Origin: a virus
DNA: 64,000 bases
Strand: one strand, 5' to 3'
Virus record (IMG/VR): IMGVR_UViG_3300009502_000041
Coordinates: 1-64,000 of that record
Part shown: positions 4,023-61,418 of the stretch, piece after piece
Layout of the letters: every line of letters begins with the position of its first letter
Position numbering within the stretch: the stretch's first letter is position 1
Notes under the pieces: model-generated
Seen by the model: only the letters and a program-made list of their open reading frames with translations
The model's database searches: none
What the model was told of the DNA's origin: nothing
Program-made: the position numbers and the translations under genes

Positions 4023-4053
4023 CAAATATAAGCAATTAAATATTAAAAACAAA
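4023..4053 (-). promoter_or_regulatory. Bacteroidetes-type promoter of the early operon
   Basis: Read on the minus strand: TTTG (4053-4050), 19 nt, then TATATTTG (4030-4023), about 20 nt before the ATG at 4003. This is a full match to the Bacteroidetes primary-sigma consensus (TTTG, about 19 nt, TAnnTTTG). It overlaps the 3' end of the upstream endonuclease gene, so the early operon has its own start. Confidence 0.75.
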
Positions 4054-5608
4054 GAGATAATTCAAATTTTGTTTGACCACAATCAAATATTCTTAAATAT
4101 TCATTTTTATTTAAATCATTTTCCTCCTTTGATTCGTTTGAAAATTGTTTGCGAACATACTTACCTCTTTTAAAATACCAATAATTTGGTTTGGTATTAT
4201 TAATAAACATAAAGTTCATTTGTTTATATAAATCACCGTTAAAATATCTTCTATCTACATATGTGGAAATTGATTTGGGTTGATATATATCGATGAAGTG
4301 TTTTAGTAACATATTTGCACCGCCAATAATATTTGTGTTTAGTTTCTCGCAGAATCTTAATATTTCATATTTATCGTTAATAATACTAAAACACATTAAA
4401 CCAACCAATTCATCGTTATATATTAAACCGTAATTATATTTAGTTTTAACGCTTCCTTGAATATGGTTTTGATTTAAAAACTCGGACGATTGTTTGTGAT
4501 TAATTCTCTTAATCGCACAATCACTAACATATATTTCACGATCAAATATGTTTAATTTTGATTTAATTATGTTTTTAACAATTTCTTTTTTGCCAATCCA
4601 CTCATCTTCAAAAATATGTATTAATTGAATTCCGCGTTCTTCACATAGTTCTGTTTTATTTAAATGATATCCATCGTCTTTATGTTCACCCGAATGCCAA
4701 TATAATCCATCAAACTCAATTCCTAACTTATGTGATGGAATGTATATATCAATTTCTTTATTTTCAATTTTTATTTTTTCGGTACAAATATTTAATTCTT
4801 CTTCAATAAAATTTCGAATTTCAATTTCCTTAATCGAACTGTTTTCGGATATTGGGTAGCACTCCGTACAAACTTTTGACGATCTATTGGTTCTATTAAT
4901 TAAATTTGTTTTAGATATTTCAAATTTATCGTGCTTTTTACAGTAATTTTTAATTAAAACAACGTTATTATCTAGAACACAAATATTATCTTTAGATAAA
5001 CATAATATTTTGCTCCATTTTTTCACAAAATTAATTTTTTTTGAATTATTTATTTTTTCACAAATCAAATCGTTTTTTGCTGGAGAATTTACTCCATATT
5101 TTTTTAGCCAAGTAATTTTACTTTTTTTGATGAATTCGTTTGTTTGTGAGTAGTTTTCAACACCATATTTTTTTAGGTTGGTTTTTTTTGATTTTTCAAT
5201 TGTTTCAATTAACGTCATTGGATTCTCGACTCCAAATTTATTTAAATTGGTTTGCTTAATCTTTTCTTTAAATTTTTCACTCTGAAAGGCATTTTCGACA
5301 CCATATTTACTTAAATTAGTTTGCTTTCTTAATTCTTTAGTGTTGTTTGATTTTAAATGACACATGTTTGTGCAATATTTGGAGTATCCAGTTGAGAATT
5401 TTTGAAATTTAACAACATTTCCACAATTAATACATTTAGGTGGATTTTTAATGTTATTAATATAGTTATATAATTTATTACTCCAAATAATATTAATAAA
5501 CCTTTTGTTATGTTTTATTATTTTATCATATAATAATGAATTTTCATTTTTTAATTTCTTTTCATTCCTATCATATTTTGATAAAAATAAAACGTCTTCA
5601 ATTTTCAT
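4043..5608 (-). CDS. Vsr-like (EDxHD-type) homing endonuclease with YGVE repeats
   Basis: About 521 aa from the ATG at 5608, which I prefer to a TTG 15 nt upstream because it overlaps the RHH gene by 11 nt exactly as in the cassette at 29240-30977. Domains in order: an N-terminal zinc-finger-like segment (CINCGNVVKF and YCTNMC, about 60-90); four repeats of the type KYGVEN.xQ, probable DNA-binding units (about 100-190); and a CxxC site (VCTECYP). A nuclease core at about 282-306 reads EIDIYIPSHKLGIEFDG then LYWHS. It resembles the very-short-patch-repair fold of the EDxHD homing endonucleases such as I-Bth0305I. The C-terminal region (about 385-470) looks GNAT-like, and the protein ends with the family signature IFDCG. 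The neighbours are intact phage genes, as expected for a free-standing homing endonuclease. Catalysis is inferred. Confidence 0.75.
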   Translation of the reverse strand: MKIEDVLFLSKYDRNEKKLKNENSLLYDKIIKHNKRFINIIWSNKLYNYINNIKNPPKCINCGNVVKFQKFSTGYSKYCTNMCHLKSNNTKELRKQTNLSKYGVENAFQSEKFKEKIKQTNLNKFGVENPMTLIETIEKSKKTNLKKYGVENYSQTNEFIKKSKITWLKKYGVNSPAKNDLICEKINNSKKINFVKKWSKILCLSKDNICVLDNNVVLIKNYCKKHDKFEISKTNLINRTNRSSKVCTECYPISENSSIKEIEIRNFIEEELNICTEKIKIENKEIDIYIPSHKLGIEFDGLYWHSGEHKDDGYHLNKTELCEERGIQLIHIFEDEWIGKKEIVKNIIKSKLNIFDREIYVSDCAIKRINHKQSSEFLNQNHIQGSVKTKYNYGLIYNDELVGLMCFSIINDKYEILRFCEKLNTNIIGGANMLLKHFIDIYQPKSISTYVDRRYFNGDLYKQMNFMFINNTKPNYWYFKRGKYVRKQFSNESKEENDLNKNEYLRIFDCGQTKFELSLCF

Positions 5609-5768
5609 AATTAATATTATCAATTTCTTTATTCAATTCTTTTCTAATTAATACTCTAATTCTCTTAGAAATTGAATATCCGTTTTTTTTACAATAATTC
5701 TTAAACTCTTCGCTAATATTTGAATCGAGTCGAATATTTAGCATTTTACTCTTAATTTGTTTTTCCAT
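5598..5768 (-). CDS. ribbon-helix-helix protein coupled to endonuclease
   Basis: 56 aa from ATG at 5768; a longer frame upstream is less likely because it would start upstream of the late promoter at 5790-5798. The sequence KMLNIRLDSNISEEFKNYCK, then KNGYSISKRIRVLIRKEL, is the pattern of an RHH DNA-binding domain: a beta strand, helix, turn and second helix. RHH dimers bind operator DNA. The stop overlaps the endonuclease start by 11 nt, so the two are translationally coupled. Likely role: autoregulation of the cassette or assistance to the endonuclease. An antitoxin-like role is possible but unproven. Confidence 0.75.
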   Translation of the reverse strand: MEKQIKSKMLNIRLDSNISEEFKNYCKKNGYSISKRIRVLIRKELNKEIDNINYEN

Positions 5769-16006: not shown

Positions 16007-16047
16007 AAACAAACCACAAATAATTTATATATTTGTGGTTTGTTTTT
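16007..16047 (+). terminator. terminator after tail tube
   Basis: 15-bp perfect stem AAACAAACCACAAAT / ATTTGTGGTTTGTTT with a 9-nt AT loop and T run. The endonuclease ATG at 16055 lies just beyond it; the terminator excludes the longer upstream start at 16040 as a sensible choice. Confidence 0.85.
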
Positions 16048-16054
16048 ATATATT

Positions 16055-17551
16055 ATGAATAAATCAGAATTGCAAGAATATTTTTTATCAAATAATAAGT
16101 CTGGTCATAAAACCAACGAAAGGTGGTTGTCGGTTAACAATACCTTGTTGTATAACGAAATTGTTGATAAATATAAAAGCATTGTAGCCACTTTTAGTGA
16201 GAAAGTATGTCTATATGTTAATGGTTTAAATGATGTTCCTAAATGTCCTAATTGTGACAAGAACGTAAAATACAACGGTACTCTTCGTAAGGGATATAAT
16301 AAATATTGCTCGATTAAATGTCTAAATTCATCTGAAGAACATAAAAAATTGATAATAGCCTCTAATAATCTTAAGTACGGTGTTGATAGTCATAACCAAA
16401 CAGAGTTGGTTAAATATAAGAAGAAAGAAACTTCATTAAAAAATTACGGTGTTGATAATCCAATGAAGTGTAATAAAATTTCGTTAAAACAAAAAACAAC
16501 TTTACTTGATAAATATAACGTTACTAACCCAATGAACATTGGTTCGGTTATTAACAATAGAATAGACAATGTTATTAACGGAACTGAGCTTAATATTCAA
16601 AGAATGTTAAACAGGATAACAGATACAAGCATTAAATTCATAAAACACGATAGTAATAAAAATGTGTTTTTTCATTGTAATAAGTGTAATGCCGACTTTA
16701 ATTTAAATAGCAACTTATTAACATCAAGAATAGCAAACAATACGACAATATGTACAAACTGTAATAAAAACAAATCATATAGTAACATTTTGCTACAATT
16801 AACCACATTCTTAGATTCAATTAACATTAATTATATTATTAATGATAGGAAAATATTAAAAGGCAAAGAACTTGATATCTATCTTCCTGATCATAAATTA
16901 GGAATTGAGATTAATGGTTTGTATTGGCACAGCAATAAATATAAAAGAAATAATTATCATTTAAATAAAACAAAATTGTGTGATGCCAATGGCGTGAAAC
17001 TTTTACATTTTTTTGAAGATGAAATATTGGGTAAAATAGATGTTGTTAAAAAGATAATATTAAATAAAATCAATGATAAAATAGAAGAAAATATTTATAT
17101 TATTAAAGAAGTTAATAATATTGAGCTAACGAACAAATTTTTATTAGAAAACACTTTAAGTCTTAATGATTATTCTGACATTAAAATAGGTGCTTTTAAA
17201 AATGATAATTTAGTTTCGTTAATGCAATTTAATAAAAGTAAAAGCATTGACGAATATAAATTATCTGGATTAAATATAGAGAATTGTGCCGAACACACAT
17301 TAAGATATTTTATCGATAATTATTCGCCAAAATCAATAATAGTTTTTAATGACAGAAGGTTTTTAAATAATATTTATGAAAACTTGGGGTTTAAAATTAT
17401 TAAAAATACGAAACCTAAATATCGCTATATTATATCTGGAAAGTTTAAAAGGTATTTACGATCTGAATTGACTGAAACCGAATTAAAATCCAATGGTTTG
17501 CATAAAATTTATGATTGTGGTTCGGTTAAGATGAAATTAACAATTAATTAG
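16055..17551 (+). CDS. Vsr-like (EDxHD-type) homing endonuclease
   Basis: 498 aa from ATG at 16055. Same architecture as the 4043-5608 gene: N-terminal finger (KCPNCDKNVKYNG with YCSIKC), three YGVD/YNVTNP-type repeats at about 105-170, and a CNKC/CTNC zinc site near 210-245. The Vsr-like core at about 271-293 reads ELDIYLPDHKLGIEING then LYWHS, followed by HFFEDE. A GNAT-like C-terminal region and IYDCG near the end complete it. There is no RHH partner and no late-type box upstream, only the tube terminator, so expression may depend on read-through. It sits between the tube gene and a convergent nuclease gene, consistent with homing next to a conserved tail gene. Confidence 0.75.
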   Translation: MNKSELQEYFLSNNKSGHKTNERWLSVNNTLLYNEIVDKYKSIVATFSEKVCLYVNGLNDVPKCPNCDKNVKYNGTLRKGYNKYCSIKCLNSSEEHKKLIIASNNLKYGVDSHNQTELVKYKKKETSLKNYGVDNPMKCNKISLKQKTTLLDKYNVTNPMNIGSVINNRIDNVINGTELNIQRMLNRITDTSIKFIKHDSNKNVFFHCNKCNADFNLNSNLLTSRIANNTTICTNCNKNKSYSNILLQLTTFLDSININYIINDRKILKGKELDIYLPDHKLGIEINGLYWHSNKYKRNNYHLNKTKLCDANGVKLLHFFEDEILGKIDVVKKIILNKINDKIEENIYIIKEVNNIELTNKFLLENTLSLNDYSDIKIGAFKNDNLVSLMQFNKSKSIDEYKLSGLNIENCAEHTLRYFIDNYSPKSIIVFNDRRFLNNIYENLGFKIIKNTKPKYRYIISGKFKRYLRSELTETELKSNGLHKIYDCGSVKMKLTIN

Positions 17552-25013: not shown

Positions 25014-25751
25014 TTAATTTTTAAATTTAATTATTTTTTCAAATTCTGGATTTTCGTATAATTCAGCAATTTGTAATATTTCTAAAGAACCAGATTTAAT
25101 GTTTTCATTATATGGTCTTTTTACTTTAATTAATTTTTGTCCCCAAGGAGCACCTAATTGTAATATTTCAGGGTCTGTTGTAATTAATACATCAATATCT
25201 TTCCACATTTCGGTTGCTTTATCAACAAAACAAATATTTTTAAATCTAGATGTCATCTTACTTAAAAAGAAAAGTGTTGATGGAATGCTAAATCTATTTT
25301 CAACAGAAAATAATGTAAATTCTACACTATCACCATATTTTAAAAGAAAATTATTTACATGTAAATCCATTTGCTTATACATAATCGGTGCAGATGCATG
25401 AATTTCAAAAACAAAATCTTCATACATAAACCTATTATATACTTCTTTTGCAGTTAATTTAATCTCTTTAGGTGCTTTAAACAAAAAAGCATCTGCTGGT
25501 GCTTCACCAAGTTTTTCATCGTGTTGATAATCCAAAGGATTAATGTCTTCGGGAAGATCACCCGGTTCTTTCAATTCTTTAATCACCTCAACAGTATCTT
25601 TCCAAGGATAATTCTTAAAAAAGTCATATACATATGGTTGTTCAGGAACACCCTCATCGGTGAACTCTTGACAAAAGAATCGATCTGTCTGAATCCATTT
25701 ACTTCTGAACACCTCATTAATATCAATACCCACCCTTATTTTCTTACTCAT
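25014..25751 (-). CDS. HAD-superfamily-like protein (deoxynucleotidase-type)
   Basis: 245 aa. The N-terminus VGIDINEVFRSK carries a DxN variant of the HAD nucleophile motif. The C-terminal part (FVDKATEMWKDIDVLITTDP followed by PWGQKLIKVKRPYN) resembles motif IV and the loop of 5'(3')-deoxyribonucleotidase-like proteins. The second Asp of DxD is Asn here, which may mean altered or lost phosphatase activity. Located in the operon between a 92-aa gene and two glycosyltransferases. Confidence 0.5.
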   Translation of the reverse strand: MSKKIRVGIDINEVFRSKWIQTDRFFCQEFTDEGVPEQPYVYDFFKNYPWKDTVEVIKELKEPGDLPEDINPLDYQHDEKLGEAPADAFLFKAPKEIKLTAKEVYNRFMYEDFVFEIHASAPIMYKQMDLHVNNFLLKYGDSVEFTLFSVENRFSIPSTLFFLSKMTSRFKNICFVDKATEMWKDIDVLITTDPEILQLGAPWGQKLIKVKRPYNENIKSGSLEILQIAELYENPEFEKIIKFKN

Positions 25752-26022
25752 TTTTTAATTTTAATTGTTCCAATTGATATTGGAGATTTTCTTGTAATTT
25801 TTTCATCATTTCTGTATGTTCAAAAATTAATTCACTATCTGTAATATATTTTGGGTTTATACATTCTATTTTTATATTAGTAGATTGTATTGGTATTGAT
25901 ATGATTTCACCCTCAAACGTGCTGGGAATAATTTTTTTTGTTACATTTGTAACAAAACTAGGTATGTCTTCACTACGCACCCCTGCAATTCCAACATATA
26001 TTACAAATATTTTAGTTTCCAT
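25744..26022 (-). CDS. hypothetical protein, 92 aa
   Basis: Start ATG at 26022 (METKIFVIYVGIAGVRSEDI) lies inside the end of the upstream endonuclease gene. An earlier in-frame ATG at 26034 is less likely. It has an alpha/beta pattern and a C-terminal coiled helix (MMKKLQENLQYQLEQLKLK). It overlaps the next gene by 8 nt. No family recognised. Confidence 0.6.
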   Translation of the reverse strand: METKIFVIYVGIAGVRSEDIPSFVTNVTKKIIPSTFEGEIISIPIQSTNIKIECINPKYITDSELIFEHTEMMKKLQENLQYQLEQLKLKNE

Positions 26023-27190
26023 TTTTAGACTCACTTAATAATTGTTTATTTACTTTTATAAATAACTTACAGTCATCAATTAAATTATTTTTTTTCATGT
26101 AATTAAAATAATTATAATTATCATATTTAATAGTTGTAATATTAGGTATATTATTATCTGTAATATGTTTTTGAATAATTTCAAAATTTATTACTTCTTT
26201 AAATTTATTTAATAGATGTTTTAAATTATTTCTCATTACATACAAATAACAACCATAATTATTTATAAACAATTCATTATATGAATTACATTTATTAATT
26301 ACATTTATAGCCAATTCAACATTCCAACAAATACGATCTTTAATTAAGTGTTTAGTGTATTCATTCAATAATTTGGTTTTTTTTAATAGATTATATGTTT
26401 TAGGTTCATTAATAATAAAATCATGGTAATTATTATATTTTTCAATAATTTTAACAACATCGTTTACATTAAAAATATTATTTTTTATTAGTTGATATAA
26501 ATATTTATCATTAATTTCTAATATTTTATTTTCAGTAATATTTGAATTGGTAATATTATTAATTATATGTAAATTTGTTATAAGCTGTTGTTTTATGTCA
26601 AAAATATATTTTTTACTAACTTCATTAATAACAATTAAACTGATGTTATTATTTATACATAAATCAAATTTAATTTTATCTTTAATATTATCAGTGTGCC
26701 ACTGTTTACCATTGTATTCAAATCCTAAATTAAATTCTTCAATATAAATATCAATTTCATAAGGTTTTATTGCCTTTCGATTATTATATTCAACAATACA
26801 ATTAGGAAATAAAATTTTTAAAATTTCAAATAGTAATAATTGTGGGGTAGAGTAATGCTGTTTAATCATGTGTTTACAAACATCATCAACAATTTTTAAT
26901 TGTCGACACGTTGTATACGCACTTGGGTCAGCTAACTGAAATTCACCTCTGGTTTTATATTTTAATGCAACTTCTGTTAAATATTCTATATTTAAATCTC
27001 TACCCACCATTTTATTTCTTTTTCCAATTTGTTTTGAGATATGTAATACAGATTTTCTTAAATTAAGCTCATTCGCTTTATTAGAAATACCCTTTTCAGA
27101 CCTATTCAAAATAATTGATAATTCCAAATCACTTTTGTTTAAAAAATTAGCTTTTAGGTAATCAATATCCGTTTTTATCCAATAATTCAT
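26012..27190 (-). CDS. Vsr-like endonuclease with NGW/CSHM-type repeats
   Basis: 392 aa from ATG at 27190 (MNYWIKTDIDYLKANF), two nt after the PhoH stop; the longer frame would run into phoH. Residues about 10-60 have a helix-turn-helix-like segment (LSIILNRSEKGISNKANELN). One clear copy of the KYKTRGEF...SAYTTCRQL...VCKHM repeat follows at about 70-105. The nuclease core at about 143-166 has EIDIYIEEFNLGFEYNG then KQWHTD, a diverged form of the core in the three larger endonucleases. The C-terminal half contains two or three degenerate copies of the repeat (KYNNYHDF, KCNSYNELF). Its end overlaps the next gene by 11 nt. Probably a homing endonuclease inserted after phoH. Confidence 0.65.
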   Translation of the reverse strand: MNYWIKTDIDYLKANFLNKSDLELSIILNRSEKGISNKANELNLRKSVLHISKQIGKRNKMVGRDLNIEYLTEVALKYKTRGEFQLADPSAYTTCRQLKIVDDVCKHMIKQHYSTPQLLLFEILKILFPNCIVEYNNRKAIKPYEIDIYIEEFNLGFEYNGKQWHTDNIKDKIKFDLCINNNISLIVINEVSKKYIFDIKQQLITNLHIINNITNSNITENKILEINDKYLYQLIKNNIFNVNDVVKIIEKYNNYHDFIINEPKTYNLLKKTKLLNEYTKHLIKDRICWNVELAINVINKCNSYNELFINNYGCYLYVMRNNLKHLLNKFKEVINFEIIQKHITDNNIPNITTIKYDNYNYFNYMKKNNLIDDCKLFIKVNKQLLSESKNGN

Positions 27191-27191
27191 T

Positions 27192-27962
27192 TTATTTTCT
27201 TTTTTCTTTAAAGTACTCGTCAAATTTATTTTCAATAACATCAATAAGCGGATTTCTAACATTTTTATCAGCATTACTCATTTCAACAACACCAATATTT
27301 TCAGTATTATTAAACATTTTAATTAAATGTTTTAATGAACTGTCTGATTTATTTGTAATATCAATTTGATTGGTATCACCTAACATAATTAATTTACAAT
27401 TTTCCCCAATGCGAGTCATTGAGGTATGTGAATTATCCATCGTTATATTTTGTGCTTCATCACTGATTATTAAGCAATTATCTAAACTAACCCCACGCAT
27501 AAACGCAAGTGGTAATGGTTTAACAATTTCTTTTTCAATTAAAGATTTTAATGCAATGCTCCCAATTATTTTTTCCATGTTAATATAATAACTTAACATG
27601 AAGGGTGTTATTTTATCGTCCAAACTTCCTTTAAGATAACCTAAATCTTCTGATTTTAAAGTAGTTACCGATTTTACTAAATATATTTTATTATAACCAT
27701 TTTCTTTTTTTCTTAAAAGACTTAAAGCATATGCAACAGCAATATAAGTTTTACCAGAACCTGCTCTACCACCGCATATTGTAATTTCATTATTTTTTAT
27801 TGAGTTTATTAAATTTTTTTGACTGTCATTTTTTGCTGTTAATTTTATTTCTGTTTTTATAATTTTACTAATTTCTTCTTTAACCCTTGAAGAAACAATA
27901 TTACAATCTGTTGATGTTAGTTCCTGAAAATCCTTTTCTTCCTTAACTCTATCCCTGCCCAT
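27192..27962 (-). CDS. phoH: PhoH-like ATPase
   Basis: 256 aa. A PhoH-family P-loop ATPase: Walker A GGRAGSGKTY at about 60-69, the family segment KIYLVKSVTTLKSEDLGYLK, PLAFMRGVSLDNCLIISDEA with Walker B (ISDEAQN), MTRIGENCKLIMLGDTNQID (sensor motif) and a conserved R near the end. Widespread in large phages; a role in nucleic-acid metabolism under stress is suspected, not proven. First gene of a minus-strand operon ending with the sigma-like gene. No promoter motif of either class is obvious upstream. Confidence 0.9.
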   Translation of the reverse strand: MGRDRVKEEKDFQELTSTDCNIVSSRVKEEISKIIKTEIKLTAKNDSQKNLINSIKNNEITICGGRAGSGKTYIAVAYALSLLRKKENGYNKIYLVKSVTTLKSEDLGYLKGSLDDKITPFMLSYYINMEKIIGSIALKSLIEKEIVKPLPLAFMRGVSLDNCLIISDEAQNITMDNSHTSMTRIGENCKLIMLGDTNQIDITNKSDSSLKHLIKMFNNTENIGVVEMSNADKNVRNPLIDVIENKFDEYFKEKRK

Positions 27963-29239: not shown

Positions 29240-30847
29240 TTAGTTAATATTTAATATAAATTTACTTTTACCACAGTCAAATATTTTTAAATATTTATTA
29301 TTTATATCTTGTTCTTTGTCATTATTAAAAACCTGTATTTCTTTTTTATTATATCTCGTTAATCCACTTGATTTAAAATAGTAATAATCTGGCTTGGTAT
29401 TATTTAAAAAACTAAAACCGAGTTGTTTTAATAAACTATCATTTGAATATCTTCTATCCGAAAAAGTTATAATTGACTTTGGTTGATATGTTATAATAAA
29501 ATAATTTAATAACTTACTTGCACCATCAACTACATAATGATTGATCTTATTACAAATATTAATCATTTTATATTCATTCTTATTAGTTTTTTTAAATGAT
29601 ATTAAAAAAACTAATTCATCATCATTATATAACCCAAAATTTAATTTAGATTTAGTATAATCGTGAATATTATTTTCATTTAGAAATATTTTAGACTTAT
29701 CAGAATTAATATTATTAATAACACAATCCTCACTAAATATTTTACTGTTAAATATGTTTAATTTTGATTTAATTATACTTTTAACAATTTCTTTTTTAAA
29801 AACCCACTCATCTTCAAAAACATGTAATAATTGAATTTCTTTTTTCTCACATAATTCTGTTTTATTTAAATGGTATTTATTATTTTTATATATGCTAGAG
29901 TGCCAATATAAACCATCAAATTCAACTCCTAACCTGCTTTCAGGTATGTAAATATCAATTTCTTTATTATTTAAAATTGTTTTATTTTTTTCTGTTTTAA
30001 GTTTTAAATCATTTTCTATAAATGATTTAATTTCATCTTCTTTAAGCGAAGAATTATTTCCAACTGGATTGCATATTATACAAGGATTTTCACATTTTCC
30101 TAAAATAACTCTCCAATAAAATACTTTTTTATTTATGGTATATTCACTATGTATTTTACACTGATTTTTAATTAAATAATTATTGTTACCATTATTAGTA
30201 ATTATTACATCTTTACCCATAATGTCGGCAGATAATTTAATTGTATTTTTTGTTTGATTTATTATTGATTTATTTTTAATGTTAATATTTTTCATTGGGT
30301 GAGATACTCCGTAATTTTCAAATAAGGTCTTTTTTATTTTATTTTTAACCAAAGGAGATTGTGATGGATAATTAACACCTAAGTTTTTTTGATTTGTTTG
30401 AATTACTTTATTTTTAATTTCTTTTGATTGTGAAATATGTTCAACCCCATATTTTTTAATTAAACTATTTTTTATTTTGTTTTTAACGTCTGCATTTTGA
30501 AAAACACAATTGCTACCATATTTTATATTATTGGTGCTTTTTATTCTATTTTTAATATTATTATCATTATTAATACATTCATTTGAGCAATATCTAAAAT
30601 ATTTGTTATTGGTATTACCCCAATTTACATTCTTATTACAAACTGGGCATACTGGTATTTTTATTATATTATTTACATAATTAAATAATTTCTGTTTAAA
30701 ACTAAAATTATTTGAAAAATATAATAAATCATGTATATTTATTTCATCATAATTTATATTATGGTGTGATTTAATATAACTTTCACGACAAACATTAGGG
30801 TTTTTATTATTTTTAATTAAAAAAATAAATTCTTCTTTATTTATCAT
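29240..30847 (-). CDS. Vsr-like (EDxHD-type) homing endonuclease, antisense in tail cluster
   Basis: 535 aa. N-terminal fingers (VCPVCNKNVNWGN, YCSNEC), four YGV-type repeats (KYGSNCVFQ, KYGVEHISQS, NLGVNYPSQS, NYGVSHPMK) at about 105-200, and a CxxC site (CIICNP). The core at about 295-317 reads EIDIYIPESRLGVEFDG then LYWHS, followed by HVFEDEW. A GNAT-like C-terminal region follows, with FDCGKSKF near the end. Its sequence resembles the 4043-5608 gene most closely, even in EDEW...KKEIVKSIIKSKLN. It is inserted antisense between the tail chaperone and tape measure genes and is coupled to an RHH gene by an 11-nt overlap. Confidence 0.75.
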   Translation of the reverse strand: MINKEEFIFLIKNNKNPNVCRESYIKSHHNINYDEINIHDLLYFSNNFSFKQKLFNYVNNIIKIPVCPVCNKNVNWGNTNNKYFRYCSNECINNDNNIKNRIKSTNNIKYGSNCVFQNADVKNKIKNSLIKKYGVEHISQSKEIKNKVIQTNQKNLGVNYPSQSPLVKNKIKKTLFENYGVSHPMKNINIKNKSIINQTKNTIKLSADIMGKDVIITNNGNNNYLIKNQCKIHSEYTINKKVFYWRVILGKCENPCIICNPVGNNSSLKEDEIKSFIENDLKLKTEKNKTILNNKEIDIYIPESRLGVEFDGLYWHSSIYKNNKYHLNKTELCEKKEIQLLHVFEDEWVFKKEIVKSIIKSKLNIFNSKIFSEDCVINNINSDKSKIFLNENNIHDYTKSKLNFGLYNDDELVFLISFKKTNKNEYKMINICNKINHYVVDGASKLLNYFIITYQPKSIITFSDRRYSNDSLLKQLGFSFLNNTKPDYYYFKSSGLTRYNKKEIQVFNNDKEQDINNKYLKIFDCGKSKFILNIN

Positions 30848-37775: not shown

Positions 37776-38125
37776 ATGAAATACGATGAAATAGTTAAGC
37801 AGTTTCAAAGCAATATTTTTGAAACGTTAACAATAACAGAAGTAGCTTTGTTAAAAAATCTAAAGGTGCTTATTCTAGCGCATTTAAAAATGGTTGGTTT
37901 GATGAAGTTTGTTCACATATGATTATAAAACATAAACCAAAAAATTATTGGAATAAGGAAATGTGCACAAAAGAAGCGTTAAAATATAACGGCAGATACG
38001 AATTTCAAAAAAATTCAATGAGTGCTTATCGTTCGGCAATTTTAAATGGCTGGCTAGATGAGGTTTGTTCGCATATGGTAATTTCTGAAATCTATTTAAA
38101 AACACAAAAGAATAATGAAAGATAA
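37776..38125 (+). pseudogene. frameshifted remnant of NGW/CSHM-repeat nuclease family
   Basis: From ATG 37776 the first frame (MKYDEIVKQFQSNIF) loses the repeat pattern near 37830. A second frame continues with NNRSSFVKKSKGAYSSAF, then KNGWFDEVCSHM, and one more copy, ALKYNGRYEFQKNSMSAYRS then NGWLDEVCSHM. These are two copies of the 45-residue repeat of the GIY-YIG protein at 60033-61418. No nuclease core remains. It lies between baseplate and sugar genes. The second frame (from 37919) is still open and could make a 68-aa repeat-only protein. Confidence 0.7.
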
Positions 38126-41403: not shown

Positions 41404-42081
41404 AAATTAATTGAAACCAAAGAAGGGTGTTATTTTTTTAGGATTTTTATGGGCAGATGGTCATATTAACAAGAAGTCATCGAGAGTTAGTTTAGATTTG
41501 GTTAGAGACGATGCCGATTATTTATATAAACAATGTTTAGTCATATCAAATGATTTTAATATGAAAATGAAACCCGAATATATTAGAAATGATTCATTGA
41601 CAGTTAGGCGTAAACCTCAAAATATTATATATTTAACAAATAATAAATTATCATTATTTTTAAAAAATCATGATTATATGAATAAAAGTAATGTTAGTGC
41701 AGATTCAATATTAGAAATTGTTAAATATAAAAATTTCTGGTTTAGGGGATATTTCGATGGTGATGGATCATTATTAATTAGAGAAAGAAATAAAATATTT
41801 AATAGTAGTTTACAATTTTCATCAAGTATTGAACAGGATTGGAAATTTTTGTTAAATCTTTAAATTTAAAAAGCTTTAAAATAATTAGAAGAATTGAAAA
41901 ATCTGGAAATTCTTCGATGTTTAAATCAGAATCGATTTATGAATCAAAAATATTTTTAGATTATGTTTATTCTGATTATTTAAATATTGGCTTACATAGG
42001 AAATATTTAATATATTTACAATTAAAAGAAATAACTTTGAAAAGAAAAAGTAAATATGAAAACATTTGCAGGGGATTTTGA
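41377..42081 (+). pseudogene. LAGLIDADG homing endonuclease, frameshifted
   Basis: Both LAGLIDADG motifs are present: FLGFLWADGHINKKSSRV (about 41440) and FWFRGYFDGDGSLLIRE (about 41738-41785), with the metal-binding Asp in each. The frame starting at ATG 41377 needs one T fewer in a T7 run (41433-41439) to join the first motif; a TTG at 41411 avoids this. The second half breaks at a T5 run near 41846-41850, where WKFLLNL ends at a stop and FVKSLNLKSFKIIRRIEK continues one frame over to 42081. Reading across both gives a normal single-chain enzyme of about 234 aa. It is either a decaying homing gene or two homopolymer sequencing errors. Confidence 0.75.
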
Positions 42082-60032: not shown

Positions 60033-61418
60033 ATGAAACCTATTAATTATTGGACATACGAAAATTGTAAAGTAGAAGCATTGAAATACCACAATAGGGT
60101 TGATTTTAGAATAAAATCCAGCGGTGCTTATTATTCGTCCCGTAAAAATGGGTGGCTAGAGGAAATTTGTTCACACATTATAAACAAGAAAAAAACAAGT
60201 AATTATTGGACTTATGATAAGTGTAAAGAAGAGGCATTAAAATATAAAACAACAAATGAGTTTAAACTAAATTCCGTGGGGGCATATGGATCATCAAAGA
60301 GAAATGGGTGGATGGTGAAAATATGTTTACATATGATCCAAAAGAAAAATTCTAGTTATTGGGAAAATATTGAAAATTGTAAAAACGAAGCATCGAAATA
60401 TAAAAATAGAGGAGAGTTCAAATCAAAATCTAATTTATCATTTAAAATATCTCGTAAAAATGGTTGGTTAAATATTGTTTCTCCACTTACGAATGTCAAT
60501 GCTGCCCCAAATAATTATTGGATATACGAAAGGTGTAAAAAGGAGGCATTAAAGTATTCCACGAGAAGTGAATTTAAAAGGAAATCCATAGGTGCTTATG
60601 CTGCTTGTTTGAGAAACAAATGGGATGATGAATTATTTTCACATATGATAAGAATTGGAAATAGATATTTAAAATGTGTTTATGTTTATGAGTTTTCTGA
60701 TAATTGTGCGTATGTTGGACTTACATATAATATGGAAAGTAGAACTCATGATAGAAATAAAACTGCAACCGATTCTGTTACAAAACATATTAAAGAAACG
60801 GGGATAAAAAACCCAACATTAAAACTGTTAACTGATTATATTAATGTTGATGAGGCGGTTATTTTAGAAGAAAAATATGTGAAAGAATATAAAAATAATG
60901 GTTGGTGTTTATTAAATAGTGCAAAAACTGGTAGTGTTGGTAGTGTTAGAAAATGGAACAAAGAAAAGTGTTTGAATGTTGCATTAAGATGTAAAACATA
61001 TGGTGAATTTAGTAAAAATTTTTCTGGGGCGTACCAATGTGCCTGTACAAACGGTTGGTTGAATGAAATTTGTTCTCATTTAACAAGAAAAAATAAAAAA
61101 GGGGGTTATTGGACAAAAGAATTGTGTAAATTGGAATTCTTGAAATATAAAACACTAAAGGAAATAAGATTAAATTCCAAAACGGCATATTCTAAGGCAT
61201 CTAAGAATGGATGGCTCAGTGAATTAAATTCGCATATGATAAGGTTTGTAAAAAGTAGAGGATATTGGACAAAAGAACGTTGTTTAGAAGAGGCACTTAA
61301 ACATTTTAAAAAAACTGAGTTTCGTAAAAAAAATGGAAGCACATATGTTATTGCATGCAAAAATGGTTGGCTAAATGATATTTGCTCTCATATGATCAAA
61401 AAAGAACCTAAATTATGA
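60033..61418 (+). CDS. GIY-YIG nuclease with seven NGW/CSHM repeats
   Basis: 461 aa. Four repeats of about 45 aa in residues 1-210 (YWTYENCKVEALKYHNRVDF then GAYYSSRKNGWLEEICSHI is the first). A GIY-YIG-like core at about 212-300 reads CVYVYEFSDNCAYVGLTYN then METSRTHDR-type, with LLEEKYVKEYKNNG. Three more repeats run to the end (KNGWLNDICSHM last). Repeat 3 has lost its C-terminal Cys-Ser-His. The order repeats, nuclease, repeats suggests a DNA-recognition scaffold wrapped around a single cutting domain. Sits between uvsX and rnh; overlaps rnh by 4 nt. Probably a homing endonuclease; whether every repeat contacts DNA is unknown. Confidence 0.75.
   Translation: MKPINYWTYENCKVEALKYHNRVDFRIKSSGAYYSSRKNGWLEEICSHIINKKKTSNYWTYDKCKEEALKYKTTNEFKLNSVGAYGSSKRNGWMVKICLHMIQKKNSSYWENIENCKNEASKYKNRGEFKSKSNLSFKISRKNGWLNIVSPLTNVNAAPNNYWIYERCKKEALKYSTRSEFKRKSIGAYAACLRNKWDDELFSHMIRIGNRYLKCVYVYEFSDNCAYVGLTYNMESRTHDRNKTATDSVTKHIKETGIKNPTLKLLTDYINVDEAVILEEKYVKEYKNNGWCLLNSAKTGSVGSVRKWNKEKCLNVALRCKTYGEFSKNFSGAYQCACTNGWLNEICSHLTRKNKKGGYWTKELCKLEFLKYKTLKEIRLNSKTAYSKASKNGWLSELNSHMIRFVKSRGYWTKERCLEEALKHFKKTEFRKKNGSTYVIACKNGWLNDICSHMIKKEPKL

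Follow-up and report, generated by a model that had tools for sequence, protein, structure and literature searches.

A probable free-standing homing endonuclease gene beside phoH in a T4-like viral record carries a helical repeat that accompanies several unrelated catalytic domains

Results

The gene beside phoH and its surroundings

The DNA analyzed here (referred to as the window) is a stretch of 64 kb from a 74 kb viral record with T4-like genes. Immediately 3' of its phoH-like gene lies a minus-strand ORF that opens with an ATG at 27190, extends into the beginning of a small conserved gene, stops at 26012 and encodes a protein of 392 residues, as determined by ORF analysis and translation (Table 1). 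The original prediction had assigned a protein to this interval; the protein proved to be real, and its strand required correction to minus, as the plus strand of 26012-27190 contains many stops and is thus not the coding reading. An alternative, longer ORF from an ATG at 27274 would overlap phoH. By family alignment the starts of relatives fall within a few residues of the tryptophan at position 4, so the start at 27190 is better supported than that at 27274. The order of domains in the 392-residue protein is helix-turn-helix (HTH), repeat 1, Vsr/EDxHD-like core and repeats 2, 3 and perhaps 4, with the motif KYKTRGEF...SAY at residues 77-92 and EIDIYIEEFNLGFEYNGKQWHTD at residues 145-167.

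Table 1. Features of the window discussed in the text
Feature	Position	Strand	Remarks
Homing endonuclease gene, free-standing (probable)	26012..27190	-	392 aa; ORF, starts of relatives, phrog_3339 'homing endonuclease' (E = 2.7e-12)
N-terminal helix-turn-helix, Myb/SANT-like	27053..27190	-	aa 1-46; three helices, pLDDT 85-94
Repeat copy 1 (good)	26855..26995	-	aa 66-112; 34.9 bits, i-E 6.5e-13; helix starts 68/81/89/101
Vsr/EDxHD-like nuclease core	26546..26854	-	aa 113-215; profile, predicted structure, alignment
Repeat copy 2 (degenerate)	26333..26467	-	aa 242-286; 10.8 bits; helix starts 242/255/263/275
Repeat copy 3 (degenerate)	26201..26326	-	aa 289-330; 7.5 bits; helix starts 291/304/312/324
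Possible decayed repeat copy 4 (uncertain)	26021..26185	-	aa 336-390; 2.6 bits; pLDDT under 50
Last 12 codons, NKQLLSESKNGN	26015..26050	-	possibly captured 3' tail of original phoH
phoH-like gene	27192..27962	-	endonuclease gene at its 3' end
Small conserved gene	25744..26034	-	3' of the insertion; ATG start probably 26022
GIY-YIG protein, seven repeat copies	60033..61418	+	four copies before and three after the nuclease; uvsX-exonuclease junction
100-aa ORF, two repeat copies, no nuclease	37823..38122	+	repeat profile
Hef-like homing endonuclease gene	4043-5623	-	phrog_3339
Hef-like homing endonuclease gene	16040-17551	+	phrog_3339
Hef-like homing endonuclease gene	29240-30847	-	phrog_3339
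LAGLIDADG-type ORF	41411-41863	+	150 aa, possibly a truncated gene; matches phrog_4645 and, short of its cut-off, LAGLIDADG_3

Nuclease core and N-terminal domain

The core had been described as Vsr-like rather than GIY-YIG, and this assignment was borne out by a profile match to I-Bth0305I and by the predicted fold. When the family profile was compared to the PDB, I-Bth0305I (3r3p) was the only significant match (E = 1.5e-4). AlphaFold2 models of the 392-residue and GIY-YIG proteins had mean pLDDT values of 79 and 81, respectively. Residues 109-215 of the predicted model aligned to 3r3p with a Z score of 10.1 (2.8 Å over 95 residues), tying it with the small nuclease-like protein 3hrl as best structural match, and Vsr itself (1cw0) had a Z score of 8.1 against the predicted core. 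The curated Vsr model (Pfam PF03852) gave no match to the 392-residue protein at E ≤ 10; the Hef-like protein at 16040 alone had a Vsr match, itself below cut-off.

Among nine family sequences, P143-Y-E-x-D147, F157-E-Y-x-G-K-x-W-H165, E190 and Q202 were invariant, with D147, W164, H165 and E190 unchanged down to 36% identity. Of the presumed catalytic signature (E, D, H, D), D147 and H165 were thus invariant in these nine sequences, and the last D of 'WHTD' was not conserved. The residue that we take to be the first catalytic Glu of Vsr (Glu25) appears to correspond to Gln117 in most family members, so nuclease activity is not certain.

The N-terminal HTH of the predicted model aligned to a Myb chain (7b9v_O) with a Z score of 6.3 and an rmsd of 1.2 over 43 residues. 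This region was also matched weakly by phrog_11013 (E = 0.017), a family that matched 4 of 82 repeat proteins (best E-value 8e-8).

Repeat copies within the 392-residue protein

The repeat profile was built from eight copies only, all from the GIY-YIG protein (60033-61418) and the small ORF (37823-38122) of the window. Against this profile the three copies of the 392-residue protein summed to 51.8 bits, compared to a maximum of about 10-11 bits in 10,000 shuffles of the same protein. The family phrog_20046 of PHROGs, which represents the repeat and is independent of the window profile, matched residues 66-112 (E = 6.4e-11). The window-derived profile located copy 1 at one and the same position in each of the nine members of the Vsr-like family (35-53 bits); its hits to the C-terminal copies were weaker and occurred in most of the nine. 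When the nine sequences were aligned and compared by hhalign to the repeats of the GIY-YIG protein, copy 2 matched with a probability of 95% (P = 3.2e-8) and copy 3 with 87% (P = 4.3e-6); by profile-profile comparison, copies 2 and 3 matched each other at 96%. In the predicted models, copies of both proteins consist of four helices whose starts are spaced by 13, 8 and 12 residues. Clear extra tandem copies are present in the relative at locus L039 (5558-6883), and extra copies also occur in the L162 relative. The presence of a fourth C-terminal copy in the 392-residue protein is doubtful. Thus, the expectation of one good copy plus degenerate copies was confirmed by the scores relative to shuffles, by hhalign and by helix spacing, and a resemblance confined to a few residues or arising by chance was excluded by the shuffles, the scan of nine sequences and the profile-profile comparisons.

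Partner domains of the repeat

Bacterial and viral contigs were scanned with a four-copy subset of the repeat, which yielded 107 loci; after iteration, the repeat was found in 131 ORFs in 1-12 copies. Proteins bearing 2-12 copies, 94 in all once redundancy had been removed, formed the comparison set. A GIY-YIG domain was present in 72 of the 94, at variable positions within the array, and the Vsr-like family accounted for nine. Two proteins of bacterial contigs (L059 and L070) had a different restriction-fold core, assigned by the pattern FDFYLP...IE..G.QH, with a DUF559 match in L070 only and below cut-off. An MUG113-like or similar domain was found in four (L065, L067, L068 and, by resemblance only, L149), and two were SF2 helicases with seven (L103) and four (L133) C-terminal copies (ResIII, E = 1.7e-18 and 5.5e-13). 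The remaining proteins were repeat-only ORFs. Five partner types among 94 non-redundant proteins thus uphold the proposal that the repeat and the cutting domain move separately; the profile search, partner listing and repeat counting favor a portable module.

Several individual proteins stood out. SF2 helicases (ResIII, phrog_16) with seven or four copies and no nuclease were encoded at L103:3-2447, L104 and L133:1069-3153. A GIY-YIG repeat gene lies just 3' of the L103 helicase, which hints that the helicase gene captured an array. L075 and L076 additionally carry treble-clef zinc-ribbon repeats. One GIY-YIG repeat protein was 100% identical in L005 and L006 (IMG/VR 3300029442 and 3300022555), so the two contigs come from one phage or the gene was transferred very recently.

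No named family was found for the repeat in Pfam or NCBIfam. In PHROGs it corresponds to phrog_20046 (function unknown), which matched all 82 repeat proteins tested. Pfam gave no NUMOD match in the 392-residue protein or in the repeat itself, and among the families shown for the 82 repeat proteins the sole NUMOD was of the I-HmuI NUMOD-like type, a distinct domain at the C terminus of L153. Searching the PDB with the repeat profile returned no credible solved relative, and the structural searches scarcely sampled the repeat, which may thus have a known fold. No description of the repeat, or of its pairing with unrelated nucleases and helicases, was found in the libraries and literature searched (subscription journals lay outside this search). 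In bacterial chromosomes the repeat was rare, detected in one of 395 Bacteroidota genomes (the centre genome), which argues for a phage-borne element.

The phoH junction

Relatives of the 392-residue protein in viral contigs were recovered with a three-sequence alignment and not with a single-protein query. Among 41 related loci, most have the small gene directly after phoH, the arrangement of an empty site. Only L039 among the 41 holds homologues, located in two consecutive junctions, with 53% identity at the same phoH junction and 48% at the next, such that the small gene is bracketed. In addition, homologues in six records of diverged T4-like phages lie between phoH and its neighbor but are inverted, standing tail to tail with phoH. 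Occurrence in the same place and in both orientations is as expected of a site-directed mobile gene. One family member, L159, sits outside the phoH context. In L039 (4294-6883) and L155, two paralogous Vsr-type repeat genes flank the same 92-aa gene, an arrangement that resembles a small homing-endonuclease island.

The phoH of the window was also unusual. Its C-terminal tail is about 20 residues shorter than in the closest relative (L012), and its identity to other phoH genes is on average 12.7 points below that expected from the flanking genes, compared to means of -4.7 to +3.8 for the other genomes. This over-divergence together with the shortened tail would fit co-conversion or loss of the target. 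The last 12 codons of the endonuclease gene, NKQLLSESKNGN, resemble phoH C-terminal tails (...RKQILVESNGD in L012, ...TKQLLVEN in L007), a likeness scored as high by 6 of 2000 shuffles and at most suggestive that the endonuclease gene took over the 3' tail of phoH.

By Rfam, no RNA family, and hence no group I intron, was detected in the window or in five loci, four of which have an interrupted phoH. In L037 the Walker A motif of phoH is split by several hundred in-frame residues with the look of an intein. L044 has a phoH ORF of comparable length that is disrupted at this position too, and the phoH genes of L043 and L045 are also interrupted.

The uvsX junction and other homing-type genes

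Residues 208-303 of the GIY-YIG protein aligned to I-TevI (1mk0) with a Z score of 10.6. The uvsX-exonuclease junction at which this gene lies was found in relatives to be empty (11-150 bp), to hold a full gene (3 to 7 copies) or to hold a one-copy remnant. The gene at uvsX behaves as the phoH-site gene does, with occupied, empty and decayed states. In L198, L202 and L234, one-repeat ORFs are present at this junction where relatives carry a full GIY-YIG gene, and these look like decayed endonuclease genes. The 100-residue ORF at 37823 is probably also a decayed homing endonuclease remnant. The three Hef-like genes of the window have different repeats of their own (DUF7487, KYGV.N..); together with the repeat-bearing genes, they bring the record to at least five homing-type genes.

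Discussion

Free-standing endonucleases of T4 cut DNA, and repair of the cut by recombination copies the endonuclease gene into the junction (PMC2988022). By analogy, the Vsr/EDxHD-type core of the 392-residue protein (residues 113-215) may cut DNA, and the N-terminal HTH and the separately folded, four-helix repeats of about 45 residues may bind DNA and position the core on its target. This target would lie in or near the 3' end of phoH; an unoccupied allele would be cut, and repair from the occupied genome would copy the gene into the junction. In T4, the cut may fall hundreds of bases away from the endonuclease gene (PMC2988022). The repeat itself would be a portable recognition module that serves several unrelated catalytic domains.

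One alternative is that the repeat match in the 392-residue protein is convergent similarity of low-complexity sequence rich in K, N and I, as might be suggested by an AT-rich genome and by the 7-11 bits that are all the C-terminal copies score on their own. We consider such convergence refuted and its likelihood negligible, as shuffles reach about 11 bits at most compared to 51.8, copy 1 lies at one place in nine family sequences (35-53 bits), the profile-profile comparisons are significant (P = 3e-8 and 4e-6), and the predicted helices are the same. The likeliest function of the repeat is recognition of DNA, based on net positive charge, flexible linkers, partners that act on DNA and site-specific insertion. 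The repeats average a net charge of +2.2, compared to 0.0 for control segments, and copy 1 of the 392-residue protein is net neutral. In the AlphaFold2 model of the GIY-YIG array (pTM 0.32), the linkers that join the copies have low confidence, suggesting that each copy folds on its own, like a bead, and does not pack into a solenoid. A role in protein-protein interaction or oligomerisation, with the HTH and core alone targeting DNA, would suit a helical repeat of a kind that commonly mediates interactions, whose variable positions display no obvious code and for which DNA contact is deduced indirectly and no solved relative was found. We judge it rather unlikely, in view of the beads-on-a-string appearance of the array with its poorly predicted linkers, the positive charge, and the partners, all of which (nucleases, helicases) act on DNA or nucleic acid. 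Moreover, most GIY-YIG members consist of little beyond repeats and nuclease, so the repeats must supply the specificity if such members home.

The gene could also be domesticated or dead, and kept without homing. Degeneration of the C-terminal repeats, Gln at the presumed Glu25 position and the decayed one-repeat remnants at the uvsX site are what such a history would leave; the ORF, however, is intact, the invariance of D147, W164, H165 and E190 points to purifying selection, and the family occurs site-specifically in two orientations, such that we find this account improbable. Taken as a whole, the best explanation, which we hold to be likely, is that the gene at 27190..26012 is a free-standing phage homing endonuclease gene in which the repeat serves as a portable recognition module. 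Only tentatively do we propose that the repeat represents a hitherto undescribed way of targeting DNA that is general among phages and has its own fold. Up to 12 units would then be joined in one array to catalytic domains of at least four unrelated kinds (GIY-YIG, Vsr/EDxHD-like, another restriction-fold nuclease and SF2 helicase), the number and order of copies setting the target.

Two specific modes of recognition were considered and rejected. A TALE-like code of one repeat per base gained no support: it calls for near-identical repeats that differ at a few positions, yet the copies of the window array were only about 41-57% identical to the first, and the variable positions resembled exposed helix positions and were not common to proteins at the same uvsX site. 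For a zinc site at C7/C41/H43, the ligands were found to be lost independently (254 CCH, 66 xCH and 51 CxH).

By predicted fold and profile, the 392-residue protein would belong with the EDxHD homing endonucleases, and the occupied and empty phoH junctions reveal a site-specific mobile phage gene, as is typical of this type. Its core is Vsr-like, as is the catalytic core of I-Bth0305I, a multi-domain phage enzyme with extended DNA-binding regions that is treated among the group I intron homing endonucleases (PMC3943268). The likeness is one of the catalytic core, the non-catalytic part of I-Bth0305I being absent from PDB entry 3r3p. By contrast to I-Bth0305I, the PDB molecule of which is named 'Mobile intron protein', the gene described here is free-standing beside phoH. 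Hef of phage U5 (nrdA-nrdB junction), annotated as a T-even homing endonuclease, is likewise free-standing in a T4-like phage, and the core pattern E-x-D-I-Y...(I/F)E(Y/F)-x-G...WH is common to the family of the 392-residue protein, Hef and the three Hef-like genes of the window. Similarity to Hef/phrog_3339 is not full-length, however, with only residues 62-202 aligning to model positions 214-346 of 536. Hef and its window counterparts possess N-terminal regions (in the window copies, DUF7487) and an extended C-terminal domain that are missing from the 392-residue protein, and no KY.TR.EF repeat was noted in Hef.

NUMODs are portable, modular DNA-binding units common to GIY-YIG and HNH homing endonucleases (PMC1564403, PMC3943268). 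The repeat is alike in concept and differs in its length of about 45 residues, its four predicted helices and its arrays of up to 12 that flank the nuclease on both sides. The library entry for the repeat family, phrog_20046, gives no tie to Vsr cores or helicases. The Seg and Mob genes of T4 (e.g., segA beside uvsX) are also intergenic, site-specific mobile genes next to conserved genes of DNA metabolism (PMC2988022), but their recognition architecture differs from that of the repeat-bearing endonucleases, and the phage records that the repeat protein matched included no T4 member.

Phage homing endonucleases were already known to borrow small DNA-binding modules. This repeat, by contrast, lies outside of Pfam and NCBIfam, builds long arrays to either side of the nuclease and is common to unrelated nucleases and helicases. 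If the repeat recognizes DNA, it would amount to a modular array of natural origin, and the proteins at the phoH and uvsX sites could be compared to work out its specificity; many 'hypothetical' proteins of phages and bacteria could then be recognized as homing endonucleases or as what is left of them after decay.
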